From: a virus
Virus record (IMG/VR): IMGVR_UViG_3300035698_010397
Location: 1-26,574 of that record
Strand: one strand, 5' to 3'
Length of the DNA: 26,574 nt
Shown: piece by piece, positions 2,922-25,862 of the stretch
How the letters are laid out: each line of letters begins with the position of its first letter
Numbering within the stretch: position 1 is the stretch's first letter
Position numbers and translations under genes: made by a program
Notes under the pieces: model-generated
What the model saw: the letters and a program-made list of their open reading frames with translations, nothing else
Database searches by the model: none
Told to the model about the DNA's origin: nothing

Positions 2922-3168
2922 CGCTGACTTTGTTATTGTCGAAACGTTTGGCGGCTTTTGTAAAGTAGCGGTTTATGATTTTGAGCAAAATGCTTTAGTG
3001 CCCGTCGGCTGGAAGCATGTCGGAAATTGGAAAGGCCGGACGGTTTCAAAATATGCTTGGGATGAACTGATTGAAAAGAATCGGAAAGCGAACCAGCCAG
3101 ACCCGATGACAAATGAAGAATTGAAAGTGTTCATGGAACGCGAGAACGCCAAGGCTTCCCGTGATTAA
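2827..3168 (+). CDS. Lipoprotein, candidate outer-membrane spanin
   Basis: A 113-aa protein starting at GTG 2827, because this start gives a complete lipoprotein signal peptide: MKH, then a hydrophobic stretch, then lipobox IVPGC with the lipidated Cys near residue 20. The mature part (about 93 aa) starts GMFTPTTIAHPDADF and is mixed in composition, with charged C-terminal helices. It begins inside the preceding membrane-protein gene in a different frame, as Rz1-type genes do. It is less Pro-rich and longer than lambda Rz1, so spanin function is inference. The lipobox itself is clear. Confidence 0.6.
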   Translation: MKHVILSGIILLAMLIVPGCGMFTPTTIAHPDADFVIVETFGGFCKVAVYDFEQNALVPVGWKHVGNWKGRTVSKYAWDELIEKNRKANQPDPMTNEELKVFMERENAKASRD

Positions 3169-3607
3169 CATGAAATTGAAAGCATTTCAGGGCATGTTTT
3201 TTAACCCTGCAAAAGTGCAACCCGCAGCCGATAGGGCAAAGCGGTCGGTATTGAGCAAGTTTGGTGCATTTGTCAGACGCACCGCGAAAAGCTCGATCAG
3301 AAAAAGAAAGAAAACAGCAGCACCGGGCAGACCCCCGACGAATAGAACAGGACTCCTGAAAAAGTTTATCTTTTTTGGATATAACCCCCTGACGGAATCG
3401 GTTGTCATTGGGCCTGCGAAGCTGAATTCAAAAAAAGGCGATGTCCCCGAATCGTTGGAATTCGGCGGCAAAACAACCGTTGTTACAGGCAGAAAATTGA
3501 AACGAAAAAAAAGAAAAGTAAGCATTGAAGCAAGACCGTTTATGAAACCAGCCGAAGAAAAAGAGCTACCGAAGCTCCCGGATATGTGGAAAAATAGTAT
3601 CAAATAA
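3161..3607 (+). CDS. HK97-gp10-like head-tail/tail completion protein
   Basis: A basic 148-aa protein. GTG at 3161 overlaps the lipoprotein stop and has AAGG at 3151; ATG at 3170 is the alternative start. The region RTAKSSIRKRKKTAAPGRPP, then a turn and strand FFGYNPLTESVVIGPAKLN, and a C-terminal KVSIEARPFMKPAEEK matches HK97-gp10-like and phage morphogenesis proteins. These have a Gly-Arg-Pro-Pro segment, a strand with VIGP, and an RPFM motif near the end. They act at the neck or in tail completion. It lies directly before the tail tube gene, the expected order. Confidence 0.75.
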   Translation: MINMKLKAFQGMFFNPAKVQPAADRAKRSVLSKFGAFVRRTAKSSIRKRKKTAAPGRPPTNRTGLLKKFIFFGYNPLTESVVIGPAKLNSKKGDVPESLEFGGKTTVVTGRKLKRKKRKVSIEARPFMKPAEEKELPKLPDMWKNSIK

Positions 3608-3628
3608 AAAAAGAACAGGAGATTTACA

Positions 3629-4075
3629 ATGTCAGATTTTAGACTAGGAATGAACGCAAAAGTATTTATTGATGGAACAGCCGGGACTGCTCTGGCTTCA
3701 TTAACGGAATTGGACAACACAAAGGATGTCACGCTGTCGATGGAGGCCGGAGAAGCTGACACGACTACCAGAGCGAACTCTGGATGGCGTGGAACAGCGG
3801 CGACGCTCCGGGAAGGATCTGCCGAGTTTGATATGGTTTGGAAAACAGGCGATACAACTGGCTTGGATGTTATTCAAGCAGCTTTCCTCGCATCGACAAC
3901 CATATCGGCGGCGGTATTGACTGGTGCTTTGGCTACAGCTGATTCTGATGGCCCGTTTGGTGATTGGTCTGTAACCAATTTCACGCGTAGTGAAGCATTG
4001 GAAGATGTTATATTGGTATCCATTACATTGAAGATGGAAACCTTCGATGCGTGGATCACTGACGGAGCAGAATAG
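3629..4075 (+). CDS. Major tail tube protein
   Basis: A 148-aa acidic beta-rich protein with ATG at 3629 and AGGAG at 3617. It reads LGMNAKVFIDG, then a loop (SMEAGEADTTTRANSGWR) and GSAEFDMVWKTGDTTGLDVIQAAFL, then strands ending LEDVILVSITLKMETFDAW. This ordering is typical of siphovirus tail tube subunits (TP901-1/gpV-like), which stack as hexamers around the tape measure. The position, after a gp10-like gene and before the chaperones and tape measure, is canonical. Its strong SD fits high expression. Confidence 0.8.
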   Translation: MSDFRLGMNAKVFIDGTAGTALASLTELDNTKDVTLSMEAGEADTTTRANSGWRGTAATLREGSAEFDMVWKTGDTTGLDVIQAAFLASTTISAAVLTGALATADSDGPFGDWSVTNFTRSEALEDVILVSITLKMETFDAWITDGAE

Positions 4076-4120
4076 CAAACAAACCCTTTAGAAATTAACC
4101 ATTAGGCACGGAGAAAGACT

Positions 4121-4597
4121 ATGAAAAGTTTTATAGACAAAGACGGCAGAGTTTGGGAAATATCATTGACAATCGGATCGGCACTTCGGGTGAAGAACTC
4201 GCTCGAAGGTGTCGATCTTTTACAACCCGAGGCTGGCGATCCACCATTGATAACCAGGCTTGGAACTGATGAGATGTTTCTGGCCGAAGTGATTTTGGCA
4301 TTGCTCGGCGATCAATTCGAGAAGTATGGAGTGAGCGTTGAAGATGTGCAGATGTCAATGGATGGTGCGACAATCATGGCAGCACAGGAGGCTTTCTATG
4401 ACGAACTGATAAATTTTTACCAGAGCCGGGGAAGGCACGACCGAGCCAAGACGGTCGAGAAACAGAGGGATCTGATCCTGATGGCGACGGAGAAAGTGGC
4501 GAAAAAGATCGGGAGCGTGGATCTGGAAAAAGCCACAGCGAACATCGACGAGATCGACATAAATTTATCGATCCCTGGAAACACGTCTGGGAAATAG
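4121..4597 (+). CDS. Tail assembly chaperone, upstream (gpG-like) frame
   Basis: A 158-aa soluble, helical, acidic protein with ATG at 4121 and GGAGAAAG upstream. It begins FIDKDGRVWEISLTIGSALRVK, typical of tail assembly chaperones, which coat the tape measure and recruit tube subunits. It stops at TAG 4595-4597. A perfect slippery heptamer at 4561-4567, thirty bases before the stop, lets some ribosomes move into the -1 frame and make a longer product of about 245 aa ending at 4857. This is the G/GT arrangement of lambda-like phages. Family call from order and frameshift is strong; sequence similarity alone is modest. Confidence 0.8.
   Translation: MKSFIDKDGRVWEISLTIGSALRVKNSLEGVDLLQPEAGDPPLITRLGTDEMFLAEVILALLGDQFEKYGVSVEDVQMSMDGATIMAAQEAFYDELINFYQSRGRHDRAKTVEKQRDLILMATEKVAKKIGSVDLEKATANIDEIDINLSIPGNTSGK
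4561..4567 (+). promoter_or_regulatory. Programmed -1 ribosomal frameshift site (A AAT TTA)
   Basis: In the frame of the gene starting at 4121 the codons read ATA AAT TTA, giving the heptamer A AAT TTA, an exact X XXY YYZ match. After slipping back one base, the tRNAs re-pair on AAA TTT and reading continues ATC GAT CCC TGG, open to 4857. The -1 frame is open from 4402, so the site lies well inside the overlap. I could not confirm a downstream stimulatory hairpin by eye. Confidence 0.8.
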
Positions 4598-4857
4598 CCG
4601 GTGTTATTGGCATTGACCCCAGACCTTTTACTGTCCGCGAATTGTTTTGGATGGGTAAAGGAAAATCAAAAGATAATTGGAATCATACATCGGCAATTAT
4701 TGCGAAAGTTCACAACGTGAATTGCACAAAGAAAAGAGATTTGATAAAGCCTGATGAGATCAACCCGCATGTTGTTGCTGCAAGTGACAATACTATTTTT
4801 GTGAAAACCGAAGCAGATCGAAACAGGATGAGGCAAGAATTTGAAGGGCTTAAATAA
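4567..4857 (+). CDS. Tail assembly chaperone, -1 frameshift extension (gpT-like)
   Basis: About 96 residues made only by frameshifting from the upstream gene, with TAA at 4855-4857. It reads IDPWKHVWEIAGVIGIDP, then RPFTVRELFWMGKGK and a charged C-terminal part. The DPRPFTxRELxWM pattern is typical of tail chaperone C-terminal domains. An ATG at 4642 (FWMGK) would start a 71-aa protein, but it cuts the conserved motif in half and has no good SD, so a stand-alone gene there is unlikely. The stop overlaps the tape measure start (TAATG). Confidence 0.75.
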   Translation: MDPWKHVWEIAGVIGIDPRPFTVRELFWMGKGKSKDNWNHTSAIIAKVHNVNCTKKRDLIKPDEINPHVVAASDNTIFVKTEADRNRMRQEFEGLK

Positions 4858-6758
4858 TGGCAGGCGACAAAGGAATCAGAGCAGGCCGGGCATTTGTGGA
4901 AATCTTTGCAGAGGATAAAAAACTCGTGCGAGGCTTACGGGCGGCAAGTAAAAAGATCAAAGCATTTGGAGCAGGCATCAGAAATGCAGGTTTGAAACTT
5001 GCTGCTGCCTCAGCTGCGATGCTGGCCCCGATTGTTTTGGCAGTAAAGGGGTTTGCAGATTTCGGCGATCAAATTGCAAAGATGTCAAAGCGAACAGGCA
5101 TCGGCGTGGAAGCACTTTCGGCTTTGCGTTTTGTTGCGTCACAGACTGGGACTTCAATCGAGTCAATGGAGAAGGGCATCAGGAAAATGCAGCGAACGAT
5201 CTCCGATGCCGGGCGTGGCTTATCCACAGCGAAAGATGCTCTTGAAGCTCTCGGTTTGACCTTTGAGCAGATAAAAGATCTTTCCCCCGAAAAGCAATTC
5301 AGACTCATCGGGGGGCGATTAGGTGCGATGAAAAACCCGACGCAAAAAGCTGCACTTGCGATGGAACTCTTCGGCAGGGCCGGCACTGAAATGATTCCGA
5401 TGCTTAACCTGGGAGCGAAGGGCATGGATGCTTTGATTAAAAAAGCACATGAGCTTGGAATTGTCATCAGCAAAGAAGATGCCAAAGCAGCCGAAGATCT
5501 GACTGATGCTTTGGATGAATTGAAAACAACGATGAAAATCATCGCATTTAATGTCGGTGCGGCATTGGCAAAGGCCGTTACAAATGGAGCAAAATCTTTT
5601 ACTGAACTGACAGCAGCAATCGCAAAATGGGTGAAAGAAAATCGCGGCGTTATAATTGCGGTTACTCAGGCAATCTTAATTATCGGCGGTTTGGGCATAG
5701 CTCTTATTTCAATCGGGATATCGATCCAGATAGTTGGCTTTGCTATTGGCGGCTTGGCGAGCGTCTTTGTCCTTTTCGGTGTAGCACTCAAGGCATTACT
5801 GGCGACGATGCTTTTCATGGCATCCCCGCTGGGTGCATTATTAACGCTGATTGCTGGTTTTGGTATTGCGGTTGGCATTGCATCGGATAATGTTGGAAGC
5901 TCTTTGAAGTGGTTGCGTGATCGATTCAACGACTTGAAAAACGATGCGATCAAAACATTCGGAGCGATTAGCGATGCTCTTGCGGCTGGCAACTTTGCTC
6001 TTGCTGCAAAGATTCTTTGGCTGTCTGTCAAATTGCAATGGCAAAAAGGGCTTTCGGCACTTACGGATCTTTGGACTGAATTCACGCTCGGATTAAAGGC
6101 TGCGTTTTTTACACTGAAGTTTGATTTGATAGGCATTTGGAATGTACTAACAAAAGGGCTTAGAGACATATGGTTTACTTTTGAAAAATGGTACAAAGAC
6201 AAGACGGATGGATTGGCTTTTTGGGTAGCTAAGCGACATCTTGAACTCAGTGTTATTCTCGGTACAAAAACGCCAGAAGAAGCTGCTGCTGCATTCATTC
6301 GTATTTCTGAACGTAGAATAAATGTACTTGCCGACAATGCGGCTGAACTTGAAAAAACAAAAGCAAAAAATAAGCTAAAATTTGCCGCTGACATTGCAGC
6401 AAATGAGAAAGCTCGAATAAAAAAGATGGGGGAGCTTGTCGGTGCGAACAAATCCGCTCAAGGTAAGACTGCGAAGGATTTGCAAAATGCCCAGAAGGCA
6501 TTTAATGACGCTGTTGCAGAGGCGAAAGATGCCAAAGACGCTATTGCTGGCCCAGACGTAATTCGTCCGGGCGGCAAGAAACCCCCCCCAGGTGGTATTA
6601 TTTCTGCGGCGGCTGCAACCGTCATGGGTTCTTTTGGATCGACTCGTAATATTGGTTTTGGTGCTCAAGTAATTGAAAAAGAGCAGCTGGCGGTATTGAT
6701 AGACATTAAGAAGAACACAAAACCAAAAAAAGATGATGAACCAACATTTGGATCATAA
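4857..6758 (+). CDS. Tail tape measure protein
   Basis: A 633-aa protein starting in a TAATG overlap with the chaperone extension. Residues 1-60 hold a basic amphipathic helix and a hydrophobic helix (KLAAASAAMLAPIVLAVKGF). Residues 65-230 match the classic tape-measure N-terminal domain (KMSKRTGIGVEALSALRFVA, later AMELFGRAGTEMIPML). Residues 264-343 form hydrophobic segments. Residues about 470-540 are coiled coil (EKTKAKNKLKFAADIAANEK), and the C-terminus is Gly/Pro/Lys-rich. The tape measure fixes tail length and leaves the tail during DNA injection. At roughly 0.15 nm per residue the tail would be near 95 nm. Confidence 0.9.
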   Translation: MAGDKGIRAGRAFVEIFAEDKKLVRGLRAASKKIKAFGAGIRNAGLKLAAASAAMLAPIVLAVKGFADFGDQIAKMSKRTGIGVEALSALRFVASQTGTSIESMEKGIRKMQRTISDAGRGLSTAKDALEALGLTFEQIKDLSPEKQFRLIGGRLGAMKNPTQKAALAMELFGRAGTEMIPMLNLGAKGMDALIKKAHELGIVISKEDAKAAEDLTDALDELKTTMKIIAFNVGAALAKAVTNGAKSFTELTAAIAKWVKENRGVIIAVTQAILIIGGLGIALISIGISIQIVGFAIGGLASVFVLFGVALKALLATMLFMASPLGALLTLIAGFGIAVGIASDNVGSSLKWLRDRFNDLKNDAIKTFGAISDALAAGNFALAAKILWLSVKLQWQKGLSALTDLWTEFTLGLKAAFFTLKFDLIGIWNVLTKGLRDIWFTFEKWYKDKTDGLAFWVAKRHLELSVILGTKTPEEAAAAFIRISERRINVLADNAAELEKTKAKNKLKFAADIAANEKARIKKMGELVGANKSAQGKTAKDLQNAQKAFNDAVAEAKDAKDAIAGPDVIRPGGKKPPPGGIISAAAATVMGSFGSTRNIGFGAQVIEKEQLAVLIDIKKNTKPKKDDEPTFGS

Positions 6759-6770
6759 GGAATTTTCATA

Positions 6771-7655
6771 ATGTTTTTGACTGACAATGTAATAATAACT
6801 TTGACTGACAGCGTGGGCGGGGCAATAGGCACGGCCAGTGTTGGAGAAAAGCCGCTGACTATCACTTCGACAATCGACTCGTATGAATCCGAGTATAATA
6901 TAAAGATCCTGACTGGGGCAAATAACGAACAACAGGCAAGAAATGCTCTCGAGCAGGCGATACCGGAGAATTTTGACAACGATGCCAAAACTCTTTTCAG
7001 AGATTCGGTAACAGTTGAGGAAATTTCATTCAGCGATTGGAAGGGTGAAGCTACTTATTCCAATCGAATCATCGAAGTACCCGACGAAATCCCCGGTTCT
7101 TTTGCCTTTGACACTACAGGCGGCACGCAGCATATAACTGATTCAAACTATACTACAAAGTTCGCAAAAGCTGGCGAGAGAGCACCAGATTATAAAGGTG
7201 CGATTGGTGTTACTGACAACGCAGTCCAGGGCGTGGATATTGTCACACCTATTTTCAATTTCGCCAAAACTGTGAGAATGAATAATTCAGTTTTGACGCT
7301 GGCTTATTCTATTTCTTTATTCAATTTGACCGGCAAGATAAACAATGCCAAGTTTTTAGGTTTTGAAAATTATGAGGTTTTATTCCGTGGAGCATCAGGA
7401 TCAGTTGAGCAGATCAATGATGTGAATATAGATGGCAAGTCTGATATAACATTTCTATTTTCTGCGAGCAGGACAAGGAAAAATTATACAGTCGGAGGTA
7501 TTACAATTACTGAAAAATATGGTTGGGACTACCAGTGGGTGCGTTACGAGGCCGTTGATGATGCCGTTGCAAAAAAGAAAGTCCAAAGGCCGAAAGCGGT
7601 ATATATTGAGGAAGTTTATTTGCAAGGCAATTTCTCAATTCTACCATTCTCATAA
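6771..7655 (+). CDS. Distal tail / baseplate protein (unrecognised family)
   Basis: A 294-aa protein starting 13 nt after the tape measure, with AAGGA at 6758-6762. Residues 1-80 are beta-rich with a helical stretch (QQARNALEQAIP). Residues 105-290 include AFDTTGGTQHITDSNYTTKF, KGAIGVTDNAVQGVDIV, NNAKFLGFENYEVLF and GWDYQWVRYE. The repeated turn-strand pattern and Thr/Asp/Gly content fit a tail hub or distal-tail-like protein, and the position after the tape measure supports this. I know no characterised member. Confidence 0.65.
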   Translation: MFLTDNVIITLTDSVGGAIGTASVGEKPLTITSTIDSYESEYNIKILTGANNEQQARNALEQAIPENFDNDAKTLFRDSVTVEEISFSDWKGEATYSNRIIEVPDEIPGSFAFDTTGGTQHITDSNYTTKFAKAGERAPDYKGAIGVTDNAVQGVDIVTPIFNFAKTVRMNNSVLTLAYSISLFNLTGKINNAKFLGFENYEVLFRGASGSVEQINDVNIDGKSDITFLFSASRTRKNYTVGGITITEKYGWDYQWVRYEAVDDAVAKKKVQRPKAVYIEEVYLQGNFSILPFS

Positions 7656-7670
7656 GAGGCACATTTTATT

Positions 7671-8294
7671 ATGGCGATGATTAAAAAAGTCAATCCCGGC
7701 GATAAGTTGAAAATCCCAGCTGCTGCTTATAATGCTATGGCAAACGCAGCCGATGCTTTTTCTCAAAATGCTTTCCATATGGGGCCGGGCCAGGACGAAC
7801 CGGGGGATAACCTGGTATTGGTCAAGAACAATTCAGGTTCAGACGTGGCTACAGGCGAGCCATTGGGCGTTGACGGGCCTATCTTCTCGCCGACCGACGA
7901 TCTATCCGAATTCAAGTACAACTTCTCTATCAAGGGCGTAGCTGTGACTACAGCAGACTATGCTGGGAACTTTGTTATTGCAGCGGAGCCGATTGAAGCT
8001 GGCAAGCTCGGGCGGGGCTACCTATCTGGCGTTTTCCCTGCGTTGCTGACCATTGTCGATGCCGATGATTTATTTGCAGATATTGTAGACGATTCTTTGA
8101 AAACTGCCTCATCTGGTGGGCTGCAAATACTCTGGAAGGAAACCGGCACGGGTACGGGCAAATGGGCGTTGGTGAGGTTTGGGACGTCCAGCATACTTCC
8201 CGTTGGTGGAGATCAGTATCAGGTTTTGCAGAAAGATTCGACGACTGATGGGGATGCAAGCTGGGATTGGGTGCGAGCACATGGTGACAACTAA
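7671..8294 (+). CDS. Putative minor tail protein
   Basis: A 207-aa protein with ATG at 7671 and AAGAGGCAC upstream. The N-terminus (KKVNPGDKLKIPAAAYNAM) leads to LVLVKNNSGSDVATGEPLGV and PLLTIVDADD-like strands. The C-terminus ends in a Gly/Asp-rich QVLQKDSTTDGDASWDWVRA segment, reminiscent of the joints between fibre repeats. Its stop overlaps the next start (TAATG), so the two are translationally coupled. Likely a tip or fibre-base component; inferred from location and beta-rich composition only. Confidence 0.6.
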   Translation: MAMIKKVNPGDKLKIPAAAYNAMANAADAFSQNAFHMGPGQDEPGDNLVLVKNNSGSDVATGEPLGVDGPIFSPTDDLSEFKYNFSIKGVAVTTADYAGNFVIAAEPIEAGKLGRGYLSGVFPALLTIVDADDLFADIVDDSLKTASSGGLQILWKETGTGTGKWALVRFGTSSILPVGGDQYQVLQKDSTTDGDASWDWVRAHGDN

Positions 8295-11409: not shown

Positions 11410-11742
11410 ATGAAAGAGAAAATTGAAATTGATGGCGTAATATATATGGCTGTTACCGAGGTATCAGGAACAGTGTTGATACGCACGTATTCAGCGGGCG
11501 TACATTTCGGAACTTTAGTAAAGCGGGAAGGTGGCGAGGTCGTCCTGAATCAAGCACGAAGGTTGCATAGATGGTCTGGTGCGTGCTCGTTAAATCAAGT
11601 CGCTATAGATGGAGTTGACTTGGCCAATTCTCGGATAAGTGTTTCTGTTCCAGAAATCACTATTCTAGGCGTGATAGAAATTATTCCCATGTCAACAAAA
11701 GCGTCAAAACAAATGCTAGAGGCAGAATCATGGAAGAGTTAA
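11410..11742 (+). CDS. DUF6948-like phage protein
   Basis: A 110-aa protein. ATG at 11410 is preferred because AAAGGAAG lies 5 nt upstream; the in-frame ATG at 11392 lies before that SD. The core RTYSAGVHFGTLVKREGGEV, then LNQARRLHRWSGACSLNQVA, and a C-terminal SVPEITILGVIEIIPMS closely follow the DUF6948 pattern from phage genomes. Function is unknown. Its last 13 nt overlap the Gly-rich gene, suggesting coupled translation. Confidence 0.65.
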   Translation: MKEKIEIDGVIYMAVTEVSGTVLIRTYSAGVHFGTLVKREGGEVVLNQARRLHRWSGACSLNQVAIDGVDLANSRISVSVPEITILGVIEIIPMSTKASKQMLEAESWKS

Positions 11743-11879
11743 AAACATACGATGGCTCTGGCGATGGCTCTGGCTATGGCGATGGCTCTGGCTATGGCTC
11801 TGGCTATGGCGATGGCTCTGGCTATGGCTCTGGCTATGGCGATGGCTCTGGCTATGGCTATGGCGATGGATCTGGCTGA
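11730..11879 (+). CDS. Gly-rich decapeptide-repeat protein
   Basis: A 49-aa protein starting at ATG 11730 (AGAGG 8 nt upstream): MEELKTY followed by alternating DG, SG and YG dipeptides. A ten-residue unit DGSGYGSGYG (30 nt) is repeated almost exactly from about 11782. It overlaps the DUF6948-like gene, which supports this frame over the Ala/Met-rich frame on the same strand or the Ser/His-rich frame on the other. It is likely disordered or fibrous, and the tract is prone to change in repeat number. Function unknown. Confidence 0.6.
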   Translation: MEELKTYDGSGDGSGYGDGSGYGSGYGDGSGYGSGYGDGSGYGYGDGSG

Positions 11880-14065: not shown

Positions 14066-14842
14066 ATGAGTGACATAAAATATTTGAAAAACGGGCAGGA
14101 AGTAACGGTCGAAAGAGATTTGGGTGATGACGGTTTTTTGGTCGATATTCATATGTGCTGTTTTTATGAAGGCGAAACGTTTATGGAGCCTTCTGGGAGG
14201 CTGATGATTGTTGATACTGTTTTTGATAATGCCCCCGTCGAAAAGATTCAAGAAGAATATGGAATCGTTCTTGCAAAAGTCAATGAATCAAAAATAGTGT
14301 TTTCAGAGTTGACTATGAAAATCAGAGTTGCAAAAAACGAACTTGAAAAAATCGAACGGCAAAAGACTGACTTGTCAAAACTCATAATCAATCGTGGGGA
14401 GTTGAAAAATGCCAAGCGGATAACCGTGTTTACAAAAGATAATATACTTCCTGTCGAGGGAAAACCAGAGAGGGATTTAAAAATCAATTTATCATTCAAA
14501 CTTATCAGCGGAGAGGAACGTTCTTGGGCCTATTCTTTCGACGGTGACCACTGGTCAAATGGTAATTATTTTGATAATGATTATGGGATTTTATACGACT
14601 TGACCGACAAGGAGGTTGACCGAATTACGTTTGAAAGAGCTGCAAGCAAGCCCAATGGTTTTTTCGGCGATCGTGAAATACTACGAACAGACTCTAGGTA
14701 TCTGCCTGCCGAGCTTATGATAAGAAAGAATGAATTGCTCGAAGCAAGTGTAAGGTCTGAAAAAAAATTACTTGAAAAAAAGATTTCAGAGACCAAAAAG
14801 GAACTGGATGAACTTAACGAAAAGGACGAGTCATGCCAATAA
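14066..14842 (+). CDS. Hypothetical protein with coiled coils
   Basis: A 258-aa protein. ATG at 14066 is preferred, 14 nt after AAGGA; the same frame runs upstream to 13952 but would overlap the preceding gene completely. Residues 1-60 look beta-rich (EVTVERDLGDDGFLVDIHMC). A coiled coil spans about 66-115, a central globular part includes FKLISGEERSWAYSFDGDHW, and a second coil closes the protein (RKNELLEASVRSEKKLLEKK onward). It lies between the ATPase and the exonuclease, so a role in recombination is possible, but no enzyme motif is visible. Confidence 0.6.
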   Translation: MSDIKYLKNGQEVTVERDLGDDGFLVDIHMCCFYEGETFMEPSGRLMIVDTVFDNAPVEKIQEEYGIVLAKVNESKIVFSELTMKIRVAKNELEKIERQKTDLSKLIINRGELKNAKRITVFTKDNILPVEGKPERDLKINLSFKLISGEERSWAYSFDGDHWSNGNYFDNDYGILYDLTDKEVDRITFERAASKPNGFFGDREILRTDSRYLPAELMIRKNELLEASVRSEKKLLEKKISETKKELDELNEKDESCQ

Positions 14843-15735
14843 CAGAAGAGCAATTAAAAGCACGGCAGAAATGTATCGGCGGTAGTGATCTTGCAGCAAT
14901 CATGGGCCTTGACCCTTGGCGTACCCCATATGATGTCTGGCTGGATAAGACGGGCCAGCTCAATTCATTCGAGCCGAACGATGCAATGAAGGCTGGCAAC
15001 TATCTTGAAGATGGCGTGCTGAACTTCGCAGAGGATATCCTAGGGCATCTTGACAGGAACATGCACAAGGCTATTCTAGGCACACCGATTGCGGTCAATA
15101 CCGATGCTGTTGTCACAGATGGCTTTGTACCAGTTGAGGCTAAAACAGTTGGCCTTGCTTTCCCAACGAAAGAAGAATGGGGCGATGAGGGAACAGATCA
15201 GATCCCTGACCGAGTAATTATCCAGAGCACTGCCCACATGATGGCATGGGACAAGGACATCTGTCACGTCCCCGCTTTGATCGGCGGTGCTGGGCTTCGG
15301 ATGTATAAAGTGCGTAGGGATAACAGGATCGTTCAGACAATACGAGAATCCGCTTTCAAATTTTGGGATTGTGTAACGACTAAAAAAGCCCCGGAGGATT
15401 CAACGGCATCACTGGAAGTCGTCAAGCGAGTCCGGCGGCAGGCTGAGAAGATTGCAGCTATTGACCCTGATCTGGTTGCGGCATGGCTACAGGCCAAAGA
15501 TGAATTCAAAGAAGCCGAAAAAACATCGAAAGAAATTCAGGCACGATTGCTGACTGCTCTTGGCGATGCGGAGGCAGGCACGGCGGGGAACTATGGGGCT
15601 GTGACGTTTTTCTCGCAATCCAGGTGTGGGCTTGATAGGGATTCACTAAAGGCCGACCATCCAGAAATATTCAAACAATACTACCGTGAAGGAAAATCCT
15701 TCCGGGTACTCAGGCACAAAAAGAAAGGGCTATGA
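14833..15735 (+). CDS. YqaJ-type phage exonuclease
   Basis: A 300-aa protein; ATG at 14833 has AAGGA upstream and overlaps the previous gene by 10 nt. The N-terminus KCIGGSDLAAIMGLDPWRTP, then YDVWLDKTG, is diagnostic of YqaJ/lambda-exonuclease nucleases. The PD-(D/E)XK core shows Glu59 in NYLEDG, an Asp at 91 or 96, Glu102-Ala-Lys104, and Gln131 in IQSTAHMMAW. Such enzymes chew 5' strands from double-strand ends to make 3' tails for the RecT protein encoded next. C-terminal helices (about 200-250) are charged. Confidence 0.88.
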   Translation: MPITEEQLKARQKCIGGSDLAAIMGLDPWRTPYDVWLDKTGQLNSFEPNDAMKAGNYLEDGVLNFAEDILGHLDRNMHKAILGTPIAVNTDAVVTDGFVPVEAKTVGLAFPTKEEWGDEGTDQIPDRVIIQSTAHMMAWDKDICHVPALIGGAGLRMYKVRRDNRIVQTIRESAFKFWDCVTTKKAPEDSTASLEVVKRVRRQAEKIAAIDPDLVAAWLQAKDEFKEAEKTSKEIQARLLTALGDAEAGTAGNYGAVTFFSQSRCGLDRDSLKADHPEIFKQYYREGKSFRVLRHKKKGL

Positions 15736-15739
15736 AATC

Positions 15740-16738
15740 ATGGCAAAGAAAACACCAGAAACACCAGAAACACCAGCAGAAAACGTTCCAAGTGAAAATC
15801 CAATTTCGACAACTACATTTTCATATCAGCCATTGATGCAGGTGGGGACAACCGCAGGATTAAAAGGGCTTGCGGAAGTGATGAAATCAAAGATCGAAAG
15901 TATGCTGCCGAAGCACATCACGCCAGAGCGAATGTTGAAAGCTCTGTTTGTTGCGGTATCGAAAACCCCCCAGCTGTTGGAATGTACGCAAGAATCAATC
16001 GTCAAAAGCCTGATGGACGCGAGCAGCCTCGGGCTGGATTGTAGCGGCACGCTCGGGAGTGCGTATTTGGTTCCATTCAGGGCCAAGAAAAAAGATACAA
16101 ACGGACGGGACATATCTGTTAGTGAATGTCAGTTGATCCCCGGTTATCGCGGCTTGATCGATCTGGCCCGGCGTGGTGGTGAAATAGCTGTCATCGAGGC
16201 CCACGTCGTTTATGCTCAGGACAAATTTGATATTGAATATGGAACTGTGAATAAGATTTTTCACAAGCCATATCTGGGAGCAGATCGGCTAGAAGAATAT
16301 ACAGGATTTTACGCTGTTGCAACTTTTCGGGATGGAATAAAACAGCCTGAATTTATGACGGTTGCAGACGTGAACAAAATCAAAGAGAAGAGCAAGGCCA
16401 AGTACGGGCCTTGGGTGGATCATTTTTCAGAAATGGCCCGAAAAACCGTTGTCAAGCGGCTTTGCAAATATTTGCCATTGTCACCAGAACTCGAACAAGC
16501 GATCCAGATCGACAATGAAACCAGCGGAGGCGAAGTGAGTTTTGCCACGGTATCAATCGGTGGGACTGAAAAGGCATTGAATCGTGTCGATTCGCTTGCG
16601 GGCAGATTGGAATCTGACAAACAAAATATCCCCGACGTAGCCGGTGAAACTTTCGTTAAGGAAACCGGCGAGGTTATCGAAAACGACAAACCAGCGGACG
16701 ACTCTGTTGCGGATGTGAAACCCGGTTCGCTTTTGTAG
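15740..16738 (+). CDS. recT: RecT single-strand annealing protein
   Basis: A 332-aa protein. ATG at 15740 is chosen because it follows AAAGGGC; the frame is open back to 15686, inside the exonuclease gene. Residues 1-25 are a Thr/Pro/Glu leader. The core matches RecT: MLKALFVAVSKTPQLLECTQ, then LDASSLGLDCSG-type and YLVPF segments, QLIPGYRGLIDLARRGGEI, GFYAVATFRDG, and a C-terminal MARKTVVKRLCKYLPLSPEL. RecT coats 3' single strands and anneals them to complementary DNA. Its pairing with YqaJ is the classic phage recombination pair. The last 60 residues are acidic and probably flexible. Confidence 0.9.
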   Translation: MAKKTPETPETPAENVPSENPISTTTFSYQPLMQVGTTAGLKGLAEVMKSKIESMLPKHITPERMLKALFVAVSKTPQLLECTQESIVKSLMDASSLGLDCSGTLGSAYLVPFRAKKKDTNGRDISVSECQLIPGYRGLIDLARRGGEIAVIEAHVVYAQDKFDIEYGTVNKIFHKPYLGADRLEEYTGFYAVATFRDGIKQPEFMTVADVNKIKEKSKAKYGPWVDHFSEMARKTVVKRLCKYLPLSPELEQAIQIDNETSGGEVSFATVSIGGTEKALNRVDSLAGRLESDKQNIPDVAGETFVKETGEVIENDKPADDSVADVKPGSLL

Positions 16739-20133: not shown

Positions 20134-20535
20134 ATGAGTGATAAATGCCCGAAATGTGGATGCGAGATTAAACTTATTCCAGCGATGGAACCAGATAATC
20201 CTGACGTGCCTACCAACTATGTAATGCAGGACGTAGCATCTTCTCTTCTCCACGAGGTTGATGACATGCAATACCTCCGCAACCAGCTTGCAACAGAGAA
20301 GACAGAGAACAAGCGGCTGAGGGAGATAAGTGATAAACTGCCGAAGACAGCGGACGGAGTACCTATTGTACCTGGCGATGTGGTGTGGACAAGGTATCGG
20401 ACAGTTGCAAAAAAGGACATTATAGAAGCCTTAGATATTGCAGTTAAAAAGCCTGCAATATGGATGGATGGGATGGCTGATGCCGAGAGATTGTACTCAA
20501 CCAAAGCTGCCGCAGAAGCGGAGAAAGGTGAATGA
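20134..20535 (+). CDS. Zinc-ribbon/coiled-coil modular phage protein
   Basis: A 133-aa protein; ATG at 20134 follows AAAGGTGA. The CPKCGC motif (Cys5, 8, 10) opens a short zinc-binding head. Residues 36-70 are a coiled coil (YLRNQLATEKTENKRLREIS). The C-terminal domain starts VPIVPGDVVWTRYRT and ends AEKGE. The same head/coil/GDxVW plan occurs in the gene at 22486, so the two may be distant paralogues. Likely a nucleic-acid or protein-binding adaptor; no function known. Confidence 0.55.
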   Translation: MSDKCPKCGCEIKLIPAMEPDNPDVPTNYVMQDVASSLLHEVDDMQYLRNQLATEKTENKRLREISDKLPKTADGVPIVPGDVVWTRYRTVAKKDIIEALDIAVKKPAIWMDGMADAERLYSTKAAAEAEKGE

Positions 20536-20759
20536 TGGATTGTGAAAACGGCAAAATTTACAGTGAAAAAGAAATAGAAGTAGTAAGAAAGCTATTCAAA
20601 AACCACGAGTTCAAACAAATCGAACCAACAGAAACACAAATGAAACGAAGGCCACCACGAGTAGGTAGAAATGATACCTGTCCATGTGGTTCAGAAAAGA
20701 AATTTAAAAGATGCTGCTACACGGGAAATTCTCGGCCTGTTTTGAAAGAAGGTGAATAA
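20535..20759 (+). CDS. SEC-C motif protein
   Basis: A 74-aa protein; ATG 20535 (or the overlapping ATG 20532) follows AAAGGTG. The C-terminal half has RNDTCPCGSEKKFKRCC, a clear SEC-C zinc motif as at the end of SecA, where it binds zinc and contacts SecB or ribosomes. Residues 1-40 are helical and charged. In phages, stand-alone SEC-C proteins are common but uncharacterised. It sits in the small-gene array with the KEGE C-terminus of the shared junction. Confidence 0.7.
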   Translation: MDCENGKIYSEKEIEVVRKLFKNHEFKQIEPTETQMKRRPPRVGRNDTCPCGSEKKFKRCCYTGNSRPVLKEGE

Positions 20760-20962
20760 TGAATGAACAAGAAAGAACAATTGCGTTAATAAATAAAATG
20801 TCCAGAGAAGAGATGTGCAGACTTTACCGCAACGCACCATCAGGACACCCGTATTTCGATCAGAGCTTGCCCTATTGGGCAGTATTCGAGAAGAGATTTA
20901 AGGAACTAGGAGGGTTTTCACCTGCTATTTCTAAAAAGATTGGTTGGGATGGTGGATCATGA
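20759..20962 (+). CDS. Small phage protein (APSGHPYF family)
   Basis: A 67-aa protein starting in a TAATG overlap after AAGGTG. It is helical, with REEMCRLYRNAPSGHPYFDQ near the middle and FKELGGFSPAISKKIGW at the end. I recognise this pattern from small phage accessory genes, with no known function. It has one Cys and no membrane segment. Confidence 0.55.
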   Translation: MNEQERTIALINKMSREEMCRLYRNAPSGHPYFDQSLPYWAVFEKRFKELGGFSPAISKKIGWDGGS

Positions 20963-21096
20963 GCAAATGCACATGGCAACCTGATGAGGAAGGCGGCTGG
21001 GTTACTGCCTGCGGAAATAGATTTGTGATTATTGAGGGAAGCCCAAAAGAAAACGGTATGAAATTTTGCCCGTATTGCGGCGATGAAATTGAATAA
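20959..21096 (+). CDS. Small zinc-ribbon protein
   Basis: A 45-aa protein with ATG at 20959, overlapping the previous stop. Cys4 and Cys18, then CPYCGDEIE with Cys37 and Cys40, can form one zinc ribbon. The pattern KCTWQPDEEGGWVTACG, then KFCPYCG, is common among short phage proteins. TAA at 21094-21096, then CsrA follows after 15 nt. Function unknown. Confidence 0.6.
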   Translation: MSKCTWQPDEEGGWVTACGNRFVIIEGSPKENGMKFCPYCGDEIE

Positions 21097-21111
21097 TAGA
21101 TAAGGTGAATG

Positions 21112-21288
21112 ATGCTGATACTATCCAGAGAAAAAGATGAAACCATTATGATTGGCGATGATATAGAAATCATGGTGGCAGACATTCGCGGAGATAAAGT
21201 CCGGGTGGCTATAACCGCCCCGGTGTATATTCCTGTTCACAGAAAAGAAATTTATGACGCAATAAAGCGGGATGGAAAAAAGAAATGA
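21112..21288 (+). CDS. csrA: CsrA-family post-transcriptional regulator
   Basis: A 58-aa protein; ATG at 21112 follows AAGGTGA. MLILSREKDE, then IMIGDDIEIMVADIRGDKVR, then ITAPVYIPVHRKEIYDAI is a full-length match to CsrA/RsmA, and the two RNA-contacting residues Leu4 and Arg44 are present at the usual positions. CsrA dimers bind GGA in hairpin loops, mostly over SDs, to block translation, or stabilise mRNAs. A phage copy could reprogramme host carbon, motility or biofilm genes, or tune phage mRNAs. It is coupled to the next gene by ATGA overlap. Confidence 0.93.
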   Translation: MLILSREKDETIMIGDDIEIMVADIRGDKVRVAITAPVYIPVHRKEIYDAIKRDGKKK

Positions 21289-21524
21289 ATCCCCGGACAA
21301 GCAAAGAAATCGAATCAGTCATTTCTGATGGTTGTAAGATGTTTTTGGAATTGACTGATGCCGATCTGGAAAAATATGCTGCTCATCTTGATCGGCTGCA
21401 CATCGAAGAGATCCCGGTTCAGATCAAAAGCAGATATCTGAACGCGGTTATTCTGTTCCGGGATAAAATAATGAAAATCGGCAAGGAAACAAAAAAGACT
21501 TTACATTCATCGCGTGGTTTGTAA
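21285..21524 (+). CDS. Hypothetical protein, paralogue of the gene at 24285
   Basis: A 79-aa helical protein starting in the ATGA overlap with csrA. It carries EIESVISDGC, DADLEKYAAHLDRL and a conserved YLNAVILFRDKI segment that matches YLNTVVLFKQKL in the gene at 24285, with equal spacing of DA, L and D residues before it. The pair probably arose by duplication. Co-translation with CsrA suggests a possible functional link, but none is known. Confidence 0.55.
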   Translation: MNPRTSKEIESVISDGCKMFLELTDADLEKYAAHLDRLHIEEIPVQIKSRYLNAVILFRDKIMKIGKETKKTLHSSRGL

Positions 21525-21571: not shown

Positions 21572-21640
21572 AGCCTTGGCAAGAGTTCACACCTACTCAG
21601 TAGTTGCGTTTCACGCTCTTGACCAAGGCTTTTTATTTTT
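21572..21640 (+). terminator. Strong rho-independent terminator before the replication genes
   Basis: AGCCTTGGCAAGAG at 21572-21585 pairs with CTCTTGACCAAGGCT at 21616-21630, with a single A bulge. The loop carries its own CTAC/GTAG hairpin at 21593-21603. TTTTATTTTT follows at 21631-21640. It separates the csrA array from the replication operon, so either a promoter lies within the 21525-21654 gap (none clear to me) or readthrough is regulated. Confidence 0.8.
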
Positions 21641-21654
21641 AAGGATTCATCGAT

Positions 21655-22473
21655 ATGCAAGATGATAAAAAATCGGTTATTCTGTATCAAGTTATCGACT
21701 GGGAAAATAATTTTGAAGGTTCCCGGACGAAAACATACAACAACAAAACATCTTGCCAAATGCCGACCAAACACGGGCTGGGATACAATAAATTGATCCG
21801 GCAAAAAAACGGGGCGGCGATCTTTGGTGCTTGGTGTTCGATGATTCAAATCTTGAGCAGGCATCCAAAACCACGTCAGGGACACTGCACTGACACCGGA
21901 GGTGCTTCGGGGTGTCCGTACACTGACAGTGATTTGTCCATTTTGACAGGAATCCCGGCATCGATCTTTTTAGAGCTTTTCCAAGTGGCTAGTAGCCCAG
22001 AGGTTATGTGGCTGCGTACACTACACGTTCACCGTAGTGACACCGTAGTGACCCCGCAGTGTCCCCTTTACTCAGACTCAGACTCAGACTCAGACTCAGA
22101 CTCAGACTCAGACTCACAAAAAGCCCCGGAAGTGGATTCTGACGGAAAGAAAAAAACCAAGAAAAAAACAGCGGAGGTGATTTTTCCTGAAAACCTTCAA
22201 AATCCTGAATTCAAAGCCGCGTGGGATTTATGGGTGGATCATCGAAAAGAGATCAAGAAGCCGTTGACCCCGACATCGATCAAAATGCAAATGAAGAAAT
22301 TCTCAGCCGAGGGGCCGGAATCGTCCATCAGGCGAATCGAGTACACTATCGAAAAAAGCTGGCAGGGGCTGGCTACAGACGAAATGATGTCCGGGGGGAG
22401 AATAGCGTCGAAATCTCAGGCAATCCCGCAGGCAGGCAAGACAGAGACTTATCCAGAGAGCACACGCAGATAG
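21655..22473 (+). CDS. Phage replication initiator-like protein
   Basis: A 272-aa protein with ATG at 21655 and AAGGATTC upstream. The N-terminal part (DWENNFEGSRTKTYNNKTSC, then GLGYNKLIRQKNGAAIFGAW and TDSDLSILTGIP) looks like the winged-helix region of phage O/DnaT-like proteins. Residues 140-154 are a Ser-Asp repeat linker. Residues 178-245 hold PENLQNPEFKAAWDLWVDHR, then KPLTPTSIKMQMKKF, a C-terminal domain common in phage replication proteins. The gene contains tandem iterons, as lambda O does, and the helicase gene follows downstream. Confidence 0.7.
   Translation: MQDDKKSVILYQVIDWENNFEGSRTKTYNNKTSCQMPTKHGLGYNKLIRQKNGAAIFGAWCSMIQILSRHPKPRQGHCTDTGGASGCPYTDSDLSILTGIPASIFLELFQVASSPEVMWLRTLHVHRSDTVVTPQCPLYSDSDSDSDSDSDSDSQKAPEVDSDGKKKTKKKTAEVIFPENLQNPEFKAAWDLWVDHRKEIKKPLTPTSIKMQMKKFSAEGPESSIRRIEYTIEKSWQGLATDEMMSGGRIASKSQAIPQAGKTETYPESTRR
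22031..22063 (+). repeat. Tandem 11-bp iterons, putative replication origin core
   Basis: ACCGTAGTGAC at 22031-22041 and 22042-22052 are identical; CCCGCAGTGTC at 22053-22063 matches at 8 of 11. Eleven is not a multiple of three, so the copies encode different residues (RSDT, VVTP, QCP); the repeat is conserved as DNA. An A-rich stretch follows at 22148-22175. An inverted GACACTGC copy lies at 21881-21888. Confidence 0.6.
22070..22117 (+). repeat. Hexanucleotide tract encoding a Ser-Asp linker
   Basis: Seven perfect ACTCAG units followed by ACTCAC, read in frame as alternating Ser and Asp. It forms an acidic linker between the two domains of the initiator-like protein and directly follows the iterons. 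Such tracts expand and contract by slippage. Confidence 0.85.
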
Positions 22474-22485
22474 AAAGGTGACGAC

Positions 22486-22770
22486 ATGAGAAAAGGAAAA
22501 TGTCAAAAATGTGGTAGGGTAGCCGCGAGGGTAAGACCCGATAAAACAGAATATGATTGTGGATCTTATCAATTTTTGCACGGAGCATTTATAGAGTCCA
22601 AACAGTGCCTACGCAATCAGCTTGCCCAAAAAAATGACGAGTTGACATACGAGCGATCAATTCCTATTGGCGAGAGAGTATGGAGTTCTGGCATCGACGC
22701 TGACGGGCTTGTCGAGACAACTTCTGTGAACGAATATATCAACTGGATCAGAGAAAAGAAAAGCCTATGA
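22486..22770 (+). CDS. Cys-containing modular phage protein
   Basis: A 94-aa protein; ATG at 22486 follows AAAGGTGACG. Cys6, 9, 25 and 41 may bind zinc. The segment KQCLRNQLAQKNDELTYERS is a short coil, and the end reads SIPIGERVWSSG. This head/coil/VW plan repeats that of the gene at 20134. Its stop overlaps the helicase start (ATGA). Confidence 0.55.
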   Translation: MRKGKCQKCGRVAARVRPDKTEYDCGSYQFLHGAFIESKQCLRNQLAQKNDELTYERSIPIGERVWSSGIDADGLVETTSVNEYINWIREKKSL

Positions 22771-24113
22771 ATGAATTTGAAAACATCAGAATTGTACCCC
22801 AGTCAATCGAAGCCGAAATGTGCGTCCTGGGATCGATGATGCTTGATACGAACTCAATCCCAATCGCAATAGAGCGGTTATGCTTGGATGACTTTTTCAG
22901 GCCGGAACATCATATTATTTGGCAATATATAATCAAGCAAACCGGGCCTGCGGCAGATCTGGTTGTGCTCAAAGAACAGATGGAGAATGACAGCAATCTG
23001 GCAAAAATCGGGGGCATCGGTTATCTGGTCAATCTGATTGACGGCGTTCCATCCTCTGCGAATATCAATTATTACATCGACATCGTGCGTGAGAAATCCA
23101 AAGGCCGCAAGTTGATTTCAATTGCAAACAAAATGACAACAGAGGCATTTGATAATACCGCACCTGCCGAAATAGTAAAAAACGCCCAGACATCGATGCT
23201 CGATCTTGTATCTGGTGAACAAAACTTTTCAACTGTTGGTCAGGCTGTTTCTGTTTTTGTAAAAGATGCGGGCGAATTCATGGCAGGTGATTCAAATCAA
23301 AATCTGCCGTACTACATACCGGATCTGGATTTTGCAACCGGGGGATTGCAGGCGGGTGAAATGTGTATCATTGCAGGCAAACCAGGCACGGGAAAAACTT
23401 CGCTTGTTATGACAGTGGCGATGAATCTCTGCCGGGCCGGGTATAACGGAATCGTTATCAATGCCGAAATGAGCAGCAAACAGCTGGCTGGTCGATTGGC
23501 TACGGCGATCGCAAGCGTTGACGGAAATGAAGTCAGGCGTGGGAAAATAAACGGCGAGGAATTCCAAAGATTAAAAGAAGCACAAAATGAAGTGAAAGAT
23601 TTCAAGTTGATGATTATCGACCGGGCATGCACAGTAGAAGAAATTTCGTTACACGTCAGGAAATGGCGGCATACCTGGGGGAAGGTCGATTTCGTGATTG
23701 TCGATTATATTCAACAGATGAAAACGCCCGGCAACAAATCCAGATATGAAGCTGTGACCGACATGGCCCGAGGTCTAAAAGATATTGCACTAGTGAATAA
23801 TGTCGCAATGTACGCTCTCGCCGCACTTCGGAAAGTTGACGACCGCAGGCCGACAAATGAAGATCTGAAAGATTCAGGTGAAATCGAATACGCAGCGGAT
23901 CAAATTATTTTATTACATCAGCCCGAATCGGTTGTGCTGGTGCGACAAATGACCGATCCCCCGATTTTGAATATGTACCCTGTCTGGGCAAAAGTTTCCA
24001 AAGATCGGGAAGGATCTCAAACACCCTGGCCCGATCAGAGTAAAGGCCCGGAGTATGGAATCAAATTGAGATTTTGCAAGGCAAGCAAATTATTCTTGCC
24101 GGAACCAAGATAG
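22767..24113 (+). CDS. dnaB: DnaB-type replicative helicase
   Basis: A 448-aa protein with the DnaB N-terminal domain (VPQSIEAEMCVLGSMMLD, then FFRPEHHIIWQYI) and the RecA-like C-terminal domain. Walker A AGKPGTGKTS is at 203-212 (Lys210), Walker B FVIVDYIQQM has Asp313, and DLKDSGEIEYAADQIILLH near 365-382 is the DnaB motif H4 region. It unwinds DNA at the phage fork, loaded by the initiator-like protein encoded upstream. The usual QLSR before motif H4 is AALRK, a small divergence. Length is normal for the family. No phage primase is visible in the window. Confidence 0.92.
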   Translation: MNEFENIRIVPQSIEAEMCVLGSMMLDTNSIPIAIERLCLDDFFRPEHHIIWQYIIKQTGPAADLVVLKEQMENDSNLAKIGGIGYLVNLIDGVPSSANINYYIDIVREKSKGRKLISIANKMTTEAFDNTAPAEIVKNAQTSMLDLVSGEQNFSTVGQAVSVFVKDAGEFMAGDSNQNLPYYIPDLDFATGGLQAGEMCIIAGKPGTGKTSLVMTVAMNLCRAGYNGIVINAEMSSKQLAGRLATAIASVDGNEVRRGKINGEEFQRLKEAQNEVKDFKLMIIDRACTVEEISLHVRKWRHTWGKVDFVIVDYIQQMKTPGNKSRYEAVTDMARGLKDIALVNNVAMYALAALRKVDDRRPTNEDLKDSGEIEYAADQIILLHQPESVVLVRQMTDPPILNMYPVWAKVSKDREGSQTPWPDQSKGPEYGIKLRFCKASKLFLPEPR

Positions 24114-24566: not shown

Positions 24567-25051
24567 GTTTTATTGTAGAGCCAAAACTAATCCAAATTAA
24601 AATCCCTGAATACGAAACCAGAAAGGGGTTTGAGGTTGCAGAATACATCGAAGGATACCCGAGAAAAGGTGACAACTATTGGGATGCCGATGTGAAAAAA
24701 TGGGTAAAAGCAAAAAACAAGCTAGTAAGCACAAAGCTTATTGCAATCGTTCGTGAATCCATTCCAGAAGTTGTCTTTGGAAAACTCGTCGTTACCCCAA
24801 ACCTAGATTATGCGGAAATGTCCGTACCGTATTATAAAATTCCTGGGCAGGATAAGCCAATACGCTATGACAAGCTCCACTCCATACCTAATTGGGGATT
24901 CAATGGATTTTGTTTTGATGGCGAATCCCAATTACACATAACGCCATTCTTGTTTGTTGTTAAAGAAGGATTGAGTTGTCAGATCGCCCTACCGTGTATT
25001 CAAATGACATACATACCGAAATATCTTGAAAGGATTAAAAATGCCAACTAA
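24536..25051 (+). CDS. Hypothetical phage protein
   Basis: A 171-aa protein; ATG at 24536 follows GAAAGGACAAACC. The Lys-rich N-terminus (MPAKKTKKT) precedes a mixed domain with EYIEGYPRKGDNYWDADVKK, then LVVTPNLDYAEMSVPYYKIP and a CFDGESQLHITPF segment. Four Trp and many Tyr suggest a compact globular protein. It directly precedes and overlaps the radical SAM gene, so the two may act together. No family recognised. Confidence 0.55.
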   Translation: MPAKKTKKTIGFIVEPKLIQIKIPEYETRKGFEVAEYIEGYPRKGDNYWDADVKKWVKAKNKLVSTKLIAIVRESIPEVVFGKLVVTPNLDYAEMSVPYYKIPGQDKPIRYDKLHSIPNWGFNGFCFDGESQLHITPFLFVVKEGLSCQIALPCIQMTYIPKYLERIKNAN

Positions 25052-25862
25052 AAAAGAAAAAAAAGCAAAAGTAAAAACCGGGGTACAGCAATGGGCAGAT
25101 GAAAGCGTGAATATTTGCACGGGCTGTAGCAACGCCTGTTTGTATTGCTACGGCAGAGATCAGATGCTTAACCGATACCACAAAATCCCAAATGGCCTTG
25201 ACTGGGAAAATGAAAAGGTCAGGCCGGCAGACGTTGCAAAGACTCGAACGAAAATCAACGGCGTTATCATGTTTCCAACAACGCACGACATCACACTGGG
25301 TAATCTCGAAGCCTGCACATCGGTTTTGAAAAAACTTCTGAAAGCTGGCAATCAAGTTTTGATTGTTACCAAGCCACGCAGGGAATGTATGAAAGCTCTC
25401 TTCACTGATCTTGTAAAATGGAAAGATCAAATTGAGTTCCGATTCTCAATAGGTACGCTGATGGAAAAGGTGCGGAAATTCTGGGAACCAAACGCACCAT
25501 CACTTGCGGAGCGATTCGACTGCCTTGGTGAAGCCAAATATTGCGGCTATAAATTATCAATTTCTTGCGAACCGTTGCTCAGCCCTTGGTCTGCTGCATT
25601 TCTGGTACATACGCTGGATTATACTTTTAAGCCGGACACGATCTGGATCGGCACGATGAATAATGTTGTCCGACGATGCCAGTGGATACTTCCACCAGAT
25701 CATCCAAAAATCGTCGAGCTTATGAAATGGCAAACGCCAGCAAAGATGCTGGAAATATATGAGAAGCTGAAAGACAACCCGAAAATTCTCTGGAAGGATT
25801 CTTATCAGAAAGTGATCGACGCAGCGTGTGAAAAGGACAAAGGAAATGCTAAGAAAATATGA
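25041..25862 (+). CDS. Radical SAM protein (phage, SPL-like)
   Basis: A 273-aa protein; ATG at 25041 follows AAAGGATTAAAA. The 4Fe-4S motif CxxxCxxC is Cys29, Cys33 and Cys36 in CTGCSNACLYCY. Later features fit the radical SAM barrel: TTHDITLGNLEACTSVLKKL, LKAGNQVLIVTKPRRE, RFSIGTLMEK, LSISCEPLLSP and TIWIGTMNN. It belongs with phage radical SAM proteins of the Gp37/Gp68 or DUF5131 type, related to spore photoproduct lyase. It probably modifies DNA, RNA or a nucleotide, but the substrate is unknown. Confidence 0.78.
   Translation: MPTKKEKKAKVKTGVQQWADESVNICTGCSNACLYCYGRDQMLNRYHKIPNGLDWENEKVRPADVAKTRTKINGVIMFPTTHDITLGNLEACTSVLKKLLKAGNQVLIVTKPRRECMKALFTDLVKWKDQIEFRFSIGTLMEKVRKFWEPNAPSLAERFDCLGEAKYCGYKLSISCEPLLSPWSAAFLVHTLDYTFKPDTIWIGTMNNVVRRCQWILPPDHPKIVELMKWQTPAKMLEIYEKLKDNPKILWKDSYQKVIDAACEKDKGNAKKI

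Follow-up and report, generated by a model that had tools for sequence, protein, structure and literature searches.

A csrA gene among the accessory genes of a phage

A virus record of 26,574 bases, analysed here over its whole length and termed the window, carries a small csrA gene, which raises the question of what the product of such a gene does in a phage and which of the controls acting on its cellular counterparts it still obeys. The open reading frame (21112-21288, forward strand) encodes a complete protein of 58 residues, MLILSREKDETIMIGDDIEIMVADIRGDKVRVAITAPVYIPVHRKEIYDAIKRDGKKK followed by a stop codon, which is recovered by the Pfam CsrA model (PF02599) over positions 1-52 of 53 with an E-value of 1.2e-21 and a score of 76.8 bits against a cut-off of 27. 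Both NCBIfam equivalogs also score above their cut-offs (PRK01712, 78.4 bits against 73; TIGR00202 csrA, 73.2 against 70.1), the protein matches PHROG 9500, "CsrA-like regulator", and a sequence search of the PDB returned nine distinct sequences, every one of them a CsrA or RsmA. A single-chain AlphaFold2 model built from an alignment of 34 sequences (pLDDT 85) matches CsrA/RsmA structures (PDB: 2bti, 1vpz and others) with TM scores of up to 0.92, including that of CsrA bound to the flagellar assembly factor (PDB: 5dmb), and its predicted helix spans residues 45-57. Leu4, Arg6, Gly15, Val42, His43 and Arg44 are all present, and of these Leu4, Arg6, Val42 and Arg44 are invariant or nearly so between this protein and its relatives. 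The match is far beyond chance, and the open reading frame is a genuine CsrA, which shares with the family the whole domain, the key RNA-binding residues and the predicted fold, but differs in being short and in lacking the C-terminal extension. A few substitutions are seen at positions otherwise conserved in Phycisphaerae, for example Ala23 and Ala33, where the host copies have Val and Gly. The initial annotation had described a full-length CsrA with intact Leu4 and Arg44, and both statements agree with the above matches and translation; of the checks it proposed, the search with family models covered nearly the whole domain, and structure prediction gave the CsrA fold for the single chain.

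The probable ribosome-binding site of the gene, judged from sequence and fold, is AAGGTG (21102-21107, forward strand). An alternative in-frame ATG lies 3 bases upstream, at 21109, but the spacing of this site is better suited to the start at 21112. The site contains no GGA, and hence there is no sign of autoregulation there.

The placement of csrA in an accessory region between recombination and replication modules, as originally proposed, is confirmed by the gene order, in which all features lie on the forward strand. Upstream are the genes for a RecE-like (YqaJ) exonuclease (14833-15735) and a RecT annealing protein (15737-16738), and downstream that for a DnaB-like replicative helicase (22767-24113), all three matched in Pfam, PHROG and NCBIfam; together with the tail genes, these place csrA among phage genes of the same virus record. 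Between these modules lie small overlapping open reading frames, of which a run immediately upstream of csrA (20532-21096) encodes a SEC-C motif protein (20532-20759), a product of no assigned function (20759-20962) and a possible zinc-ribbon protein (frame open from 20944, ending at 21096). The stop codon of csrA overlaps the ATG of a 79-residue open reading frame (21285-21524) in the sequence ATGA, so that the two are probably translationally coupled; the product of the latter found no match in Pfam, PHROG or NCBIfam. The run ends, before an open reading frame at 21655, in a strong hairpin followed by a T-run (21572-21630; -28.3 kcal/mol over 121 nt, z -3.4, none of 200 shuffles as low), which is probably the terminator of the csrA gene run, although it could instead belong to the leader of the gene that follows. 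Searches for Rfam families and tRNAs across the window found none, and this hairpin too has no Rfam match. There are no fliW or flagellin genes near csrA in the window.

Elsewhere in the window, short tandem coding repeats (GSGYGDGSGYG, SDSDSD) occur within or beside open reading frames at 11742-11879 and about 22075-22115, and a protein beside the tail genes (811-2115) contains a GDSL-like lipase/acylhydrolase domain. A protein of 278 residues (25026-25862) weakly matches spore photoproduct lyase and PHROG 13321; it contains the cysteine-rich stretch CSNACLYCY and is possibly a radical-SAM protein.

CsrA in phages is not new as such, and the window csrA is a further example. Among GenBank phage proteins 81 records match it, mostly from Pseudomonas and Vibrio phages and all with less than 60% identity, and there are 197 matching plasmid records. 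Sobrero and Valverde (2020) catalogued 30 phages with csrA (PMC7366521), and Campa et al. (2021) reported many phage csrA genes in GenBank and IMG/VR and proposed an anti-CRISPR-Cas role for them (PMC8450108). In 2025 a knock-down of the phage csrA homologue PTXU04_00028 was reported to give smaller plaques, the role of csrA in the phage life cycle having until then been untried according to its authors (PMC11879866). The window gene resembles those of these three reports in lying in a phage accessory region. In the parts of the three reports drawn on here, phage CsrA is not discussed in relation to FliW; what is new here is the planctomycete host and the specific prediction of FliW insensitivity.

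A probable Phycisphaerae host

In a search of genome contigs, 79 of the best 80 loci belonged to Phycisphaerae or other Planctomycetota (the exception, L062, is titled otherwise). The window CsrA is 65-76% identical to chromosomal Phycisphaerae CsrA and, unlike the mostly Pseudomonas and Vibrio phage proteins from GenBank, all less than 60% identical to it, is of the type found in Phycisphaerae, where FliW is a common antagonist of CsrA. A search for other window proteins around the chromosomal csrA loci gave no matches, indicating that these loci are chromosomal genes. The tail module (3161-8294, forward strand; tape measure at 4857-6758 with its neighbours) is syntenic with Phycisphaerae prophage-like regions, in which up to 8 of its genes are co-located, as in the single-contig genome G061 (L260). 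The tape measure has homologues in 60 of the 198 Phycisphaerae genomes, and the best of them span about 90% of the query at roughly 40-45% identity; the top GenBank phage match covers 40% of it at 28% identity, and the leading matches there align over 25-40%. Homologues of the RecE-RecT pair and the adjacent ATPase occur together in a Phycisphaerae contig (L247) and a viral contig (L245). As a host marker RecT was set aside as weak, since gammaproteobacterial phages reach 47% identity. IMG/VR contained no close relatives of the window DnaB and RecE, and the two close relatives of RecT found there are in records that do not carry csrA.

The CsrA similarity, the tape measure and the syntenic tail genes, taken together, suggest that the host is very probably a Phycisphaerae bacterium (Planctomycetota), a likely affiliation that the initial annotation had missed. 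In several host genomes that carry a related tail module the only csrA is the chromosomal one, and the gene therefore looks like an accessory rather than a core component of this phage group. A FliW match (Pfam PF02623) is absent from 87 of the 198 sampled Phycisphaerae genomes, and FliW-positive as well as FliW-negative genomes are represented among those whose tail or RecT genes are closest to the window's.

FliW and Asn55 in the chromosomal CsrA proteins

In these bacteria csrA sits in the order flgL-fliW-csrA-fliC, with Planctomycetales bacterium ZRK34 (L032) showing flgK-flgL-fliW-csrA-fliC-fliC (gene names here were assigned by reading the proteins, with FliW confirmed at the genome level by Pfam). 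A fliW gene lies near csrA in 102 of 135 primary chromosomal loci, and Asn55 is present in 98 of these 102 as against 3 of the 33 loci not beside fliW. When FliW was scored independently at the genome level with PF02623, in the 109 genomes read for csrA, Asn55 was found in all 53 genomes whose FliW is ordinary, in none of the 13 whose FliW is degenerate (all have Arg55) and in 5 of the 43 that lack FliW (Fisher p ~1e-25, a statistic that ignores ancestry). This distribution can be set beside studies in other bacteria: alanine scanning in Campylobacter revealed that CsrA Val51 and Asn55 are needed for FliW binding, which is also abolished by removal of the last 20 residues (PMC7829508), Asn55 is needed for FliW binding in Geobacter CsrA (PMC13407953), and the N55D mutant of Bacillus subtilis CsrA is cited as abolishing the interaction (PMC13407953). 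Among 40 secondary chromosomal paralogues, mostly without fliW nearby, only 7 have Asn55, suggesting that Asn55 is as a rule lost where there is no FliW and that Gly55 by itself is no proof of escape.

The co-occurrence of a degenerate FliW with Arg55 in 13/13 genomes (G010, G029, G038, G045, G052, G066, G072, G084, G096, G113, G125, G148 and G166) suggests co-evolution of what would be the interaction interface. Among the secondary paralogues, three proteins (L189, L190 and L191) have the CsrA domain fused to a deaminase-like domain with the motifs HAE and PCYLC, and in a further protein (L207) it is fused to a response-regulator-like domain, these domain names being derived from reading the sequence alone.

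A predicted CsrA-binding hairpin in the flagellin leader

Ahead of the first flagellin gene that follows csrA lies a hairpin of the form RCAAUC-ANGGAG-GAUUGY, with the GGA of the Shine-Dalgarno sequence placed in its loop, about 11 bases from the start. Of 74 distinct leaders of this gene, 54 have a stem of five or more pairs enclosing the GGA loop. Covariation was evaluated on 71 of the 74, leaving out three without the loop core: pairing was observed in 84.5% of the stem cells versus 79.6% in shuffles, changes on both sides in 21 stem cells versus 9.4, and the covariation score was 0.168 versus 0.118, none of 500 shuffles scoring as high. The predicted element fits the typical shape of known CsrA targets, a hairpin at the ribosome-binding site with GGA in its loop. 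Action of the phage protein on host mRNAs, in line with the earlier proposal that it could redirect host metabolism, thus appears plausible, with indirect support from its Phycisphaerae-like sequence and from this conserved predicted hairpin.

Absence of the FliW determinant in the phage CsrA and its rarity in related viral proteins

The window CsrA has Gly55 and only 3 residues after it, whereas in the chromosomal primary copies position 55 is followed by a median of 37. It shares the CsrA core with the FliW-regulated proteins of Bacillus, Campylobacter and Geobacter, and its likely host lineage resembles those bacteria in its fliW-csrA-flagellin genes and in bearing a hairpin with GGA at the ribosome-binding site of flagellin; the phage copy, however, lacks Asn55, the C-terminal extension and neighbouring fliW or flagellin genes, and it accordingly falls outside the FliW-regulated subgroup. 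If the Campylobacter mapping can be transferred, both the FliW-binding residue and its context would be gone, and with Gly55 and a stop after residue 58 the protein is predicted not to respond to FliW. Hence, the initial view of an ordinary complete CsrA holds for the RNA-binding core, but not for the C-terminal part that serves the FliW switch.

When the window protein was aligned with those of Phycisphaerae and the alignment used as the query, 57 viral loci were recovered. Their CsrA proteins retain Arg44 in 57/57 cases but Asn55 in only 9/57, with a median of 11 residues after position 55; compared with 58/109 sampled chromosomal copies, the deficit of Asn55 has p ~2e-6, although the viral sequences are related and the counts are not independent of ancestry. 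A CsrA tree had too few columns and almost no resolved branches, and independent-pair tests were of low power. None of 64 viral csrA loci has fliW, flgL or flagellin nearby, which rules out that the viral set consists of misfiled host flagellar loci. It is conceivable, though in our estimation rather unlikely, that planctomycete phages repeatedly carry a host-type CsrA stripped of its FliW determinant (Asn55 and the extension) and thereby evade the FliW brake of the host.

Two viral contigs (L130, 224 kb, and L133, 104 kb; in each case from 6001) encode proteins in which two CsrA domains are joined, which may represent a CsrA dimer made from a single chain, and an IMG/VR contig of 201,946 bases (L122 and L134) encodes two separate CsrA proteins.

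A FliW-independent repressor and the alternatives

The explanation we favour, with a probability of roughly 0.55, is that the window encodes a host-derived, FliW-independent translational repressor of a Phycisphaerae phage, with flagellin mRNA as the best candidate target. The phage would have taken its gene from a host-type csrA, and the protein would most likely form the usual dimer, bind ANGGA hairpin loops at ribosome-binding sites and repress translation of host mRNAs, foremost perhaps that of flagellin. FliW would normally counteract the host CsrA by way of the C-terminal extension and the helix that surrounds Asn55, whereas the phage protein, with Gly55 and its end at residue 58, would keep repressing when the host protein is released. 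In a flagellated host it would thus hold flagellin translation down, presumably to the benefit of the phage. The prediction of FliW insensitivity rests on one residue and a short tail.

The same residue and tail could have another origin. The gene might come from a Phycisphaerae lineage without FliW whose CsrA had already lost Asn55, and might encode an ordinary metabolic or translational regulator, in which case the missing element would reflect ancestry rather than escape. Such lineages are common, 43 of the 109 sampled genomes read for csrA having no FliW and 38 of these 43 no Asn55, and some of their chromosomal proteins, such as L042 and L184, read IKREG where the phage protein has the similar IKRDG; L184 also belongs to the closest rows of the tree. 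However, the nearest rows in this poorly resolved tree, L013 and L010, are FliW-linked, and the CsrA proteins of FliW-less chromosomes are mostly longer-tailed, with a median of 27 residues after position 55. A naive log-odds comparison of residues 1-50 with the two lineages falls slightly on the FliW-linked side (+0.9), although the core does not discriminate between them. On the whole, we regard this origin as possible but somewhat doubtful.

Regulation mainly of the phage's own mRNAs, as an early/late switch or in the control of lysogeny, is less supported than repression of host mRNAs with FliW insensitivity, and we consider it improbable. A GGA lies within 20 bases upstream of the start in 24 of 46 gene leaders, but GGA also occurs in ordinary Shine-Dalgarno sequences; the start of the coupled open reading frame at 21285 is covered by a weak hairpin whose loop contains GGA, but this structure is no better than shuffled sequence (z -0.8). 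The host-type site is absent from the window at up to 3 mismatches, and its gene leaders lack a strong GGA hairpin. The suggestion in the initial annotation that the phage might switch its own mRNAs in this way, given also the csrA leader without GGA, consequently finds no backing. Least probable of all is suppression of host defences such as CRISPR-Cas, since nothing specific in the window points to it, even though RsmA is a repressor of cas mRNAs in Serratia and Campa et al. (2021; PMC8450108) put phage homologues of RsmA forward as potential anti-CRISPR factors.

Implications

The analysis links a phage genome to Phycisphaerae and indicates that a FliW-CsrA-flagellin circuit with a target hairpin exists in these bacteria. 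For the presence of CsrA in phages, FliW-using bacteria provide a concrete hypothesis, namely that RNA binding is kept while the switch is dropped. If planctomycete phages do repeatedly evade the FliW brake in this way, infection would keep flagellin and the other targets of CsrA repressed regardless of the flagellar status of the host.
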